DNA from: Phytophthora sp. 'mugwort'
Taxonomy: Eukaryota > Oomycota > Peronosporomycetes > Peronosporales > Peronosporaceae
Assembly: GCA_033558025.1 (NCBI GenBank)
Contig: JAUCEF010000001.1
Location: 1,426,001-1,490,000, forward strand
Length of the DNA stretch: 64,000 bases
Reading direction: 5' to 3'
Part shown: positions 19,206 to 43,518 of the stretch, one piece after another
Position numbering within the stretch: the stretch's first letter is position 1
How the letters are laid out: each line of letters opens with the position of its first letter
Position numbers and translations under genes: made by a program
Notes under the pieces: generated by a model
What the model was told of the DNA's origin: nothing
The model's database searches: none
Seen by the model: the letters and a program-made list of their open reading frames with translations, nothing else

Positions 19206-19238
19206 CTGGCCAGCGTTAGGTGGAGGTGTGCAAAAGAC

Positions 19239-19310
19239 GGGCCCAGCCGGTGATCGAAACCGGGACCTCTCGCACCCAAAGCGAGAATCATACCACTAGA
19301 CCACTAGGCC
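19239..19310 (-). tRNA. tRNA-Pro(UGG), unit 1
   Basis: The 72-nt gene folds fully. The acceptor stem GGCCTAG/CTGGGCC has all seven pairs (one G-U). The D stem is GTC/GAT. The anticodon stem CTCGC/GCGAG closes the loop TTTGGGT, giving anticodon UGG. The T stem CCGGT/ACCGG closes the loop TTCGATC, and the discriminator base is C. The A box (TGGTCTAGTGG) and B box are intact. A TTTT terminator lies 3 nt past the 3' end. There is no intron. Unit markers: T, TGC, C, G. Confidence 0.95.
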
Positions 19311-19550
19311 GCTAACCTATCCTCGACAGAACCACATGTCGCGTATCACACATAACACAAACACTCTCTCGACTGGAAAAGCTCTGTGGTCGTTTCTTGT
19401 ATCGACGACCCCTAACATTATCTGCAGCCCCCGATTCGAGCGATTTCGTCGTATTAATTTATAGAGGTAATACGCAACATATCCCGTACAAACCATTCAC
19501 AGCCACATGACTAACGCACGCACACCTCAACCACTAGACACACTTGAGTG

Positions 19551-20051
19551 ATGTACCACCGGTACCAGCAAATACAACAGCTACCGAGGCAACTACAGCG
19601 GAACAAAAAGGCGACGTACTCAAAAGCAGCACGAGTTCAAAGTGGTGGCGTCGAGCTGTCGCGCAGAACGGATCTTACTTCGCAGGCAGCCATCGCTGCC
19701 GGGGTTGCTATTCCTGGCGAGGCGTTCTATCGCATACAACCCGTGTCCCTTTGTATTCGTTCTCTTCTTACGCCCATTGATGCAGTGAACATTTCCGTCA
19801 AGTACGGCTCCGCCTACACGACCTGGAAACGGCGTCCAGTATTTGCCAGCGCACCTCTACGACAACTTCTCCCATGGTTGTTACACAACTACAAGTGCCT
19901 CGCCAAACGTCATTCGCGTATAGGTTTCAGCGTCGGCAGACTCGAACTGAAACGCAGCGCGCAGCGAACCTCGACAACGCTTAAGCATGCGGGCTACTCA
20001 CAACCACATTTCAAGGGCGCGGTGACAGAGCCGCAGTGCTGCTGTATATAA
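19551..20051 (+). CDS. 166-codon open frame in each array unit (unit 1 shown)
   Basis: The frame runs from ATG (MYHRYQQIQQLPRQ) to a TAA that overlaps the TATATAAA motif. The same frame is open at ATG positions 20674, 21797, 22920, 24043, 25166, 26289, 27412, 28535, 29658, 30781, 31904, 33027, 34150, 35274, 36397, 37520, 38643, 39766, 40889 and 42012. Unit 22 (43135) is cut short and ends in 131 codons. I recognise no domain; the sequence is basic with no obvious membrane segment or signal peptide. A diverged copy at 52784-53320 also stays open despite an in-frame 39-bp duplication, which hints at coding constraint now or in the past. It could equally be a chance frame in a young satellite. 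A 78-codon frame overlaps it and is probably a shadow. Confidence 0.35.
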   Translation: MYHRYQQIQQLPRQLQRNKKATYSKAARVQSGGVELSRRTDLTSQAAIAAGVAIPGEAFYRIQPVSLCIRSLLTPIDAVNISVKYGSAYTTWKRRPVFASAPLRQLLPWLLHNYKCLAKRHSRIGFSVGRLELKRSAQRTSTTLKHAGYSQPHFKGAVTEPQCCCI

Positions 20052-20052
20052 A
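20045..20052 (+). promoter_or_regulatory. TATATAAA motif, present in each full unit
   Basis: A TATA-box-like TATATAAA overlaps the stop of the 166-codon frame and recurs at the same place in units 1-21. It is kept in the diverged copy near 52812 (minus), where LTR-like sequence and a Copia gag lie downstream. It may therefore be an ancestral LTR promoter. No transcription start can be seen. Confidence 0.4.
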
Positions 20053-20361
20053 GAGTCAATAAGCGAAGAGTACTGATGGGCCACTCAACTTAACAGTCTA
20101 TGAAGTTAAAAGTGGCTTCAAAAACGAAGGTAGGCATAATCTAAGGAGAGCAAAAAACACACCAGCAGCCACAAACACCAGCAACGACAACCACAAAGAA
20201 CAGCAACAACAACAGCAATACCGAAACGAAATACAGCATAAAGGGACTGACAGCAAAACCCCTACAACTACAGCGACCGTGTAGAACAGTAGTACGCGCC
20301 GAGCGCCGCCTCACCCGATGGGCGCGGTTGAACTGGCGTTGGGTGGAGGTGTGCAAAAGAC

Positions 20362-20433
20362 GGGCCCAGCCGGTGATCGAAACCGGGACCTCTCGCACCC
20401 AAAGCGAGAATCATACCACTAGACCACTAGGCC
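20362..20433 (-). tRNA. tRNA-Pro(UGG), unit 2
   Basis: Identical to the unit 1 gene. Unit markers in array order: T, CGC, C, G. Confidence 0.95.
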
Positions 20434-40576: not shown

Positions 40577-40648
40577 GGGCCCAGCCGGTGATCGAAACCG
40601 GGACCTCTCGCACCCAAAGCGAGAATCATACCACTAGACCACTAGGCC
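40577..40648 (-). tRNA. tRNA-Pro(UGG), unit 20
   Basis: Identical gene. Unit markers: G, TGC, C, G, a hybrid of the two blocks. Confidence 0.95.
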
Positions 40649-41699
40649 GCTAACCTATCCTCGACAGAACCACATGTCGCGTATCACACATAACACAAAC
40701 ACTCTCTCGACTGGAAAAGCTCTGTGGTCGTTTCTTGTATCGACGACCCCTAACATTATCTGCAGCCCCCGATTCGAGCGATTTCGTCGTATTAATTTAT
40801 AGAGGTAATACGCAACATATCCCGTACAAACCATGCACAGCCACATGACTAACGCACGCACACCTCAACCACTAGACACACTTGAGTGATGTACCACCGG
40901 TACCAGCAAATACAACAGCTACCGAGGCAACTACAGCGGAACAAAAAGGCGACGTACTCAAAAGCAGCACGAGTTCAAAGTGGTGGCGTCGAGCTGTCGC
41001 GCAGAACGGATCTTACTTCGCAGGCAGCCATCGCTGCCGGGGTTGCTATTCCTGGCGAGGCGTTCTATCGCATACAACCCGTGTCCCTTTGTATTCGTTC
41101 TCTTCTTACGCCCATTGATGCAGTGAACATTTCCGTCAAGTACGGCTCCGCCTACACGACCTGGAAACGGCGTCCAGTATTTGCCAGCGCACCTCTACGA
41201 CAACTTCTCCCATGGTTGTTACACAACTACAAGTGCCTCGCCAAACGTCATTCGCGTATAGGTTTCAGCGTCGGCAGACTCGAACTGAAACGCAGCGCGC
41301 AGCGAACCTCGACAACGCTTAAGCATGCGGGCTACTCACAACCACATTTCAAGGGCGCGGTGACAGAGCCGCAGTGCTGCTGTATATAAAGAGTCAATAA
41401 GCGAAGAGTACTGATGGGCCACTCAACTTAACAGTCTATGAAGTTAAAAGTGGCTTCAAAAACGAAGGTAGGCATAATCTAAGGAGAGCAAAAAACACAC
41501 CAGCAGCCACAAACACCAGCAACGACAACCACAAAGAACAGCAACAACAACAGCAATACCGAAACGAAATACAGCATAAAGGGACTGACAGCAAAACCCC
41601 TACAACTACAGCGACCGTGTAGAACAGTAGTACGCGCCGAGCGCCGCCTCACCCGATGGGCGCGGTTGAACTGGCGTTGGGTGGAGGTGTGCAAAAGAC

Positions 41700-41771
41700 G
41701 GGCCCAGCCGGTGATCGAAACCGGGACCTCTCGCACCCAAAGCGAGAATCATACCACTAGACCACTAGGCC
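41700..41771 (-). tRNA. tRNA-Pro(UGG), unit 21
   Basis: Identical gene. Unit markers: T, TGC, C, G, with a private G-to-T change (GCGACCTTG) near 42740. Confidence 0.95.
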
Positions 41772-42822
41772 GCTAACCTATCCTCGACAGAACCACATGT
41801 CGCGTATCACACATAACACAAACACTCTCTCGACTGGAAAAGCTCTGTGGTCGTTTCTTGTATCGACGACCCCTAACATTATCTGCAGCCCCCGATTCGA
41901 GCGATTTCGTCGTATTAATTTATAGAGGTAATACGCAACATATCCCGTACAAACCATTCACAGCCACATGACTAACGCACGCACACCTCAACCACTAGAC
42001 ACACTTGAGTGATGTACCACCGGTACCAGCAAATACAACAGCTACCGAGGCAACTACAGCGGAACAAAAAGGCGACGTACTCAAAAGCAGCACGAGTTCA
42101 AAGTGGTGGCGTCGAGCTGTCGCGCAGAACGGATCTTACTTCGCAGGCAGCCATCGCTGCCGGGGTTGCTATTCCTGGCGAGGCGTTCTATCGCATACAA
42201 CCCGTGTCCCTTTGTATTCGTTCTCTTCTTACGCCCATTGATGCAGTGAACATTTCCGTCAAGTACGGCTCCGCCTACACGACCTGGAAACGGCGTCCAG
42301 TATTTGCCAGCGCACCTCTACGACAACTTCTCCCATGGTTGTTACACAACTACAAGTGCCTCGCCAAACGTCATTCGCGTATAGGTTTCAGCGTCGGCAG
42401 ACTCGAACTGAAACGCAGCGCGCAGCGAACCTCGACAACGCTTAAGCATGCGGGCTACTCACAACCACATTTCAAGGGCGCGGTGACAGAGCCGCAGTGC
42501 TGCTGTATATAAAGAGTCAATAAGCGAAGAGTACTGATGGGCCACTCAACTTAACAGTCTATGAAGTTAAAAGTGGCTTCAAAAACGAAGGTAGGCATAA
42601 TCTAAGGAGAGCAAAAAACACACCAGCAGCCACAAACACCAGCAACGACAACCACAAAGAACAGCAACAACAACAGCAATACCGAAACGAAATACAGCAT
42701 AAAGGGACTGACAGCAAAACCCCTACAACTACAGCGACCTTGTAGAACAGTAGTACGCGCCGAGCGCCGCCTCACCCGATGGGCGCGGTTGAACTGGCGT
42801 TGGGTGGAGGTGTGCAAAAGAC

Positions 42823-42894
42823 GGGCCCAGCCGGTGATCGAAACCGGGACCTCTCGCACCCAAAGCGAGAATCATACCACTAGACCACTAGGCC
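42823..42894 (-). tRNA. tRNA-Pro(UGG), unit 22
   Basis: Identical gene in the last, truncated unit. First marker G; the other marker sites are lost. A private G-to-A change lies at about 43479. Confidence 0.95.
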
Positions 42895-43518
42895 GCTAAC
42901 CTATCCTCGACAGAACCACATGTCGCGTATCACACATAACACAAACACTCTCTCGACTGGAAAAGCTCTGTGGTCGTTTCTTGTATCGACGACCCCTAAC
43001 ATTATCTGCAGCCCCCGATTCGAGCGATTTCGTCGTATTAATTTATAGAGGTAATACGCAACATATCCCGTACAAACCATGCACAGCCACATGACTAACG
43101 CACGCACACCTCAACCACTAGACACACTTGAGTGATGTACCACCGGTACCAGCAAATACAACAGCTACCGAGGCAACTACAGCGGAACAAAAAGGCGACG
43201 TACTCAAAAGCAGCACGAGTTCAAAGTGGTGGCGTCGAGCTGTCGCGCAGAACGGATCTTACTTCGCAGGCAGCCATCGCTGCCGGGGTTGCTATTCCTG
43301 GCGAGGCGTTCTATCGCATACAACCCGTGTCCCTTTGTATTCGTTCTCTTCTTACGCCCATTGATGCAGTGAACATTTCCGTCAAGTACGGCTCCGCCTA
43401 CACGACCTGGAAACGGCGTCCAGTATTTGCCAGCGCACCTCTACGACAACTTCTCCCATGGTTGTTACACAACTACAAATGCCTCGCCAAACGTCATTCG
43501 CGTATAGGTTTCAGCAAA

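Follow-up and report, generated by a model that had tools for sequence, protein, structure and literature searches.

A tandem array of 22 tRNA-Pro(UGG) genes in Phytophthora sp. 'mugwort'

A 64,000-nucleotide stretch of the genome of Phytophthora sp. 'mugwort' (C1:1426001-1490000 in an assembly of 86.26 Mb and 154 contigs; hereafter the window) contains a head-to-tail array in which the gene for the proline transfer RNA (tRNA) with the anticodon UGG recurs 22 times (Table 1). The repeated unit is 1123 bp long in 20 cases and 1124 bp in one, while the terminal unit is broken off. ARAGORN calls one tRNA-Pro(UGG) gene per unit, all of them on the minus strand (from 19239-19310 to 42823-42894), and the Rfam family RF00005 recovers the same 22 genes, each at 51.3 bits against a cut-off of 29. 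The 22-copy array with its 1123-bp period, which a preliminary description made from the sequence alone had put forward, is therefore borne out by both searches.

The 72-nt tRNA sequence is identical in all 22 copies. One of these genes aligns end to end with the RF00005 model, the sole non-standard pair lying in the D arm, and it contains the A and B boxes of the internal RNA polymerase III (Pol III) promoter, followed just past its 3′ end by a terminator-like TTTT. The TTTT was inspected directly in three units, and no variable column of the array falls on it. The sequence hallmarks of a nuclear tRNA-Pro gene of eukaryotes are present, from the cloverleaf and the anticodon to the A and B boxes and a terminator near the 3′ end, and the preliminary account of the gene's anatomy holds, with the D-arm pair as its one qualification.

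Table 1. Features of the array and its surroundings; positions are those of the window unless another stretch is named.
Feature	Position	Strand	Basis or remark
Tandem array	19213..43523	-	22 head-to-tail units; periodicity and tRNA calls
First tRNA-Pro(UGG) gene	19239..19310	-	ARAGORN, Rfam
tRNA-Pro(UGG) starts, copies 2-8	20362, 21485, 22608, 23731, 24854, 25977, 27100	-	
tRNA-Pro(UGG) starts, copies 9-15	28223, 29346, 30469, 31592, 32715, 33838, 34962	-	
tRNA-Pro(UGG) starts, copies 16-22	36085, 37208, 38331, 39454, 40577, 41700, 42823	-	
A box, first copy	19292..19303	-	tRNA nt 8-19; counted by hand on the sequence
B box, first copy	19249..19261	-	tRNA nt 50-62; counted by hand on the sequence
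Anticodon UGG, first copy	19276..19278	-	ARAGORN
TTTT, Pol III terminator-like run, first copy	19232..19235	-	3 nt beyond the 3′ end of the tRNA
GCGACATGTGG, candidate upstream element	19332..19342	-	starts 32 nt upstream of the first tRNA
Multi-copy element, right-hand part	17800..19212	.	forms the left array boundary
Truncated edge unit 22	42823..43523	-	edge-type differences at columns 657, 694, 695
Short stretch between array and LINE	43524..43664	-	its 3′ part is copia-like integrase sequence, by eye
LINE (long interspersed element)	43665..51036	+	reverse transcriptase frame, weak endonuclease matches
Copia-like remnant	51037..52752	-	inferred by eye
Inverted array-unit remnant	52748..53554	+	columns 82-882, with 39-bp tandem duplication
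Second remnant	54101..54287	-	columns 957-1103 (80%), gap, columns 45-86 (98%)
Copies of the LINE family	window 43665-51036; L016:1-4426; L042, L045, L054, L055, L060, L066-L068		

The spacer has weak internal repeats of 16 and 22 bp in two to three copies, and a second RNA gene in the unit was rejected, as an Rfam scan reaching up to E 5 found no family besides tRNA. On the strand opposite the tRNA, a frame of 166 codons is open in all 21 complete units (e.g., window 20674-21174) and occurs as three protein versions, in 15, 5 and 1 of them; a comparison of its product with 114 candidates gave no relative at an E-value of 0.001 or below, Pfam gave no match either, and on that basis a protein gene in the spacer was likewise rejected. 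The word GCGACATGTGG precedes the tRNA by 31-32 nt in each of the 22 units and, among the matches listed, also stands upstream of 50 of 53 tRNA-Pro(AGG) genes on contig C17, where the upstream regions are otherwise little like those of the UGG genes. It may be considered a candidate upstream Pol III element. It was discarded as a motif of all proline arrays, there being no exact copy at the single CGG gene read (a gene cut by the end of its stretch and hence without an ARAGORN call).

The preliminary description contrasted an unchanged tRNA with varying spacers and proposed recent homogenisation or selection. The tRNA is indeed unchanged, but the spacers hardly vary: units 1-21 have 8 variable columns and a mean pairwise difference of 0.20%, and three extra columns (657, 694 and 695) differ in the truncated unit 22 only. 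Because so few columns vary, the invariance of the tRNA is no sign of selection; the chance that 9 to 11 variable columns would all miss a 72-nt gene is 0.55 to 0.48, and selection was rejected as a deduction from it. Recent homogenisation fares better. The variants are arranged in blocks, two of them being common to units 13-19, and the summed differences between neighbouring units come to 21 against 45.6 in shuffled arrays, with no shuffle among 20,000 falling to that value. In addition, units 2-5 recur as units 6-9, a repetition reached in 0.004 of shuffles of 21 units and in 0.009 of shuffles of units 1-12. Variant blocks and a repeated four-unit block are what unequal crossing-over leaves behind, which supports the view that the array was recently homogenised in this way.

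The edges of the array, where decayed remnants lie, also fit this picture. On the left, the array begins where a multi-copy element stops: four other near-full-length copies of this element end at window 19212 or 19213, and a fifth, partial and 75% identical, extends 6 bases further. At the right edge, unit 22 is cut off behind column 693 (position 43515), and the next 8 bp match the start of an edge-type 39-bp duplication, the one found in the inverted remnant beyond the LINE. Of the six 100-bp bins of this remnant up to column 681, five match the array at 99-100% identity and one at 93%, after which identity falls to 89% and then 79%. Of the tRNA gene, the second remnant keeps nucleotides 1-28 and has lost everything after them, terminator included. 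Together these pieces suggest that the array once extended further to the right and that its edge units have decayed. A search of the genome with the spacer (which skips very common words, so that the array itself is absent from its results) listed, outside the array, only these two remnants and, on C13, a piece of 102 bp. The idea that the C13 piece is a tRNA relic was rejected, as it consists of about 102 bp of spacer with no tRNA called in its 10-kb stretch. Of the copia-like remnant, the overlapping frame at 50698-51384 gave no Pfam match.

A UGG-type 27-mer, allowing up to 2 mismatches, matches 22 times across the whole genome. All 22 matches lie inside the array, and thus on one contig, so that the ordinary tRNA-Pro(UGG) set elsewhere against which the preliminary description wished its idea to be judged was not found by this search, although a very divergent or a mitochondrial gene would be missed. 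The other proline isoacceptors have arrays of their own. A tRNA-Pro(AGG) array on C17 has units mostly of 377 bp, with some of about 366, and comprises at least 83 genes (82 in four 10-kb stretches and one across a stretch boundary) before running on beyond them; a tRNA-Pro(CGG) array on C18, with a spacing of ~540 bp, occupies at least 100 places, all on C18 among the matches listed. A genome-wide proline-tRNA pattern search returned 177 forward and 142 reverse matches in all. The forward matches fit AGG and would put its total at about 177 genes; the UGG genes are among the reverse matches, at one mismatch, and subtracting these 22 would leave about 120 for CGG. The UGG array is thus the smallest of the three proline-tRNA arrays in the genome, which leaves the special gene dose once proposed for this isoacceptor unsupported.

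Arrays are not confined to proline. On C1, near 3.74 Mb, there is an array in which Gly-CCC and Gly-UCC genes are mixed, with 8 genes in one stretch (L016), and a count of the canonical B-box word gives 1,994 in the genome against 134 for a reversed control; 19 arbitrarily chosen 10-kb stretches yielded no tRNA calls. Separately, a tRNA with one and the same score of 66.2 bits appears on many contigs, C15 to C115, and accounts for 62 of the 63 places scored among 9,329 candidates; the assembly may here retain organellar or repeat contigs.

It is very probable, in our judgement, that the array in the window consists of ordinary nuclear tRNA-Pro(UGG) genes, all of them equipped with an internal Pol III promoter and a terminator, kept uniform by recombination and supplying tRNA-Pro(UGG). 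The structure, the promoter boxes, the terminator, the identity of the copies and the block structure can be read directly from the sequence. Each unit would be a separate Pol III gene with its own promoter and terminator; unequal crossing-over and gene conversion, to judge from the blocks and the decayed edges, would have enlarged the array and would keep its units alike, as in the other tRNA arrays of the genome and in those published for Phytophthora and downy mildews; mobile elements bound it on both sides, the outermost right-hand units being broken; and its size may be set by recombination more than by codon demand. Since no other pattern match was found in the genome, the array is probably the nuclear source of tRNA-Pro(UGG) and would most likely provide the cell with it.

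Several considerations weigh against this interpretation. Transcription of the array is something that we infer from sequence, and its copy number comes from one assembly. The always-open 166-codon frame may yet encode a second product of the unit. Gene numbers do not track codon use: in a sample of 22,729 codons, taken from 36 open frames that are each 300 codons or longer (transposon frames included) in the first 17.8 kb of the window and the 19 arbitrarily chosen stretches, proline codons divide into CCG 33%, CCA 27%, CCC 22% and CCT 18%, yet UGG has the fewest genes. Moreover, a tRNA with the anticodon AGG that carries inosine at position 34 could in principle read CCA, in which case the UGG array need not be essential.

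The mismatch between gene numbers and codon use also lends something to the idea that the array is kept not for tRNA supply but as a boundary or clustering domain bound by Pol III and TFIIIC, and there are precedents: the human tRNA tandem repeat at 1q23.3 has been implicated as a boundary element (PMC4041453), and a role in nuclear or chromatin organisation has been raised for the arrays of P. infestans (PMC9584435). However, the genome has about 2,000 B-box words besides several tRNA arrays, among which the UGG array is unremarkable, and neutral recombination accounts for its structure without any such role, so we regard this idea as unlikely. It is slightly less likely still that the organism possesses fewer units than were assembled. 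Long, near-identical arrays are easily mis-sized, a warning given in PMC9584435, where tRNA numbers vary by about one-quarter across three P. infestans assemblies; here, however, the 21 units comprise 10 haplotypes whose variant combinations form ordered blocks, which argues for several real units without fixing their exact number. Least likely of all is that the unit is a tRNA-headed transposable element resembling a short interspersed element (SINE) and spreading by copying. In its favour, the label SINE-like is the one that PMC11540230 gives to very similar clusters in Peronospora effusa on account of their quick expansion, with sizes that differ between isolates as clusters expand and contract, and the 166-codon frame recurs in every complete unit as frames do there. 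Against it, a Pol III transcript should end at the terminator 3 nt behind the tRNA, ahead of any SINE body, the tRNA is intact in 22 of 22 units, the search of this one genome lists only the two remnants in the window and the piece on C13 in place of dispersed copies with target-site duplications, and the Discussion of that same paper considers the elements likely unable to mobilise and ascribes the variation to non-allelic homologous recombination.

The LINE at the right edge of the array has an RVT_1 domain (1.8e-24), its endonuclease matches being weak and below the Pfam cut-offs, and its 3′ end has 154 genome matches with at most 3 mismatches. The 33 junctions read at that end (32 of the 40 matches listed and one from an arbitrary stretch, L029) include six inside tRNA genes: one in a Gly-CCC gene, inserted before nt 11; four in Thr-UGU genes within about 40 kb of each other on C17, inserted before nt 10; and one in an Asp-GUC gene, nearer the 5′ end of the gene (3′ junction alone read). 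The Gly-CCC copy has a 16-bp target duplication over tRNA nt 11-26, and two of the Thr-UGU copies have a 36-bp target duplication with one mismatch. Taking 2,000 tRNA genes of 72 bp, or 0.17% of the genome, three independent insertions into tRNA genes among 33 would arise by chance with a probability of 2e-5, or 0.017 if the tRNA share were tenfold larger.

Other observations weigh against targeting. Two of the Thr copies agree in both flanks and may go back to a single insertion that was duplicated, two junctions on C16 (L047 and L051) have a common flank, two (L048 and L058) are without the usual end, and 27 of the 33 lie outside tRNA genes, among them that of the window copy, which is inserted in copia-like sequence. 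A bias towards tRNA genes is therefore at most a preference. It is conceivable, though doubtful, that the tRNA arrays of this Phytophthora are the target of a LINE family whose insertions fall in the 5′ part of tRNA genes, in or close to the A box, that the arrays survive because recombination among units purges the broken ones, and that array size therefore reflects the balance between LINE attack and homogenisation instead of codon demand; insertion into tRNA genes, if confirmed as targeting, would tie the upkeep of arrays to transposon pressure. A literature search revealed no paper reporting, by title or listing, LINEs in Phytophthora tRNA genes. The available part of a paper on Utopia elements deals, for Phytophthora, with U2 genes; the elements it mentions as specific for tRNA-Arg and for tRNA-Glu are those of planaria. 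Near the LINE 3′ end in the window, a tRNA-like stretch (50650-50725, minus strand) has words resembling A and B boxes by eye, with no ARAGORN call and no Rfam match at the gathering score.

The surroundings are those of a Phytophthora genome, in that the top named matches of two flanking frames are to this genus. The product of a left-flank frame is 80% identical to a P. nicotianae protein (69-80% among the top full-length named Phytophthora proteins), and that of a second frame has, across 55% of its length, 92% identity with a P. cactorum protein, and 91% with two proteins that carry no species name. The left flank also holds a fragment of a DDE_Tnp_4 transposase (window 14787-15236, minus strand; Pfam 4.1e-12).

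The preliminary description had supposed a one-tRNA satellite to be new for an oomycete, a claim that the literature overturns. In a 2010 survey, Entamoeba figures as the sole report of tRNA tandem repeats (PMC2888827). The genome paper on P. sojae (PMC11139960) does not use the word tRNA in its main text, and that on P. agathidicida (PMC9667082) gives, in the part available, no more than tRNA counts per chromosome. However, tandem single-tRNA arrays have been published for P. infestans (PMC9584435), with 7,519 tRNA genes and an expansion of tRNA-Pro-UGG singled out by name, and for Peronospora effusa (PMC11540230), with 33-39 tRNA clusters per isolate and 10 to 970 units per cluster. As in P. 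infestans, the same tRNA gene lies head to tail here, one per unit, in near-identical copies with variants grouped, and just as about two-thirds of the families there occupy a single chromosome, so does the UGG array. The difference is that tRNA-Pro(UGG), enlarged in P. infestans, forms in this genome the smallest of the proline arrays, with a unit of 1123 bp.

The resemblance to P. effusa is close as well. One cluster there has a 100% identical tRNA and less conserved spacers, and the clusters share with our array an identical tRNA beside a more variable spacer, sub-blocks made up of units, inverted pieces and open frames in the spacer, while 22 units fall within the range of sizes; the SINE label, however, suits this array poorly, given its terminator and the lack of dispersed copies. 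More distant systems agree in part. Entamoeba (PMC2652664) also has its tRNA genes in tandem units that are mostly uniform within an isolate, but those units hold up to five tRNA genes, which are separated by short tandem repeats in E. histolytica and E. dispar, whereas here there is one tRNA per unit and the spacer repeats are weak. The human variable tRNA repeat at 1q23.3 (PMC4041453) is again a tandem tRNA repeat of changing copy number (9-43 units), but its units are GC-rich, 7.3 kb long and equipped with a CTCF site, unlike those described here. Overall, the array is an ordinary example of the tRNA arrays already published for oomycetes and not novel in kind. What it contributes is a clean addition to these recently noticed arrays, a case in which each of three proline isoacceptors has a chromosome-specific array to itself, the unit length differing from one to the next, and sequence arguments on whether such clusters are best understood as tRNA genes or as SINE-like elements.

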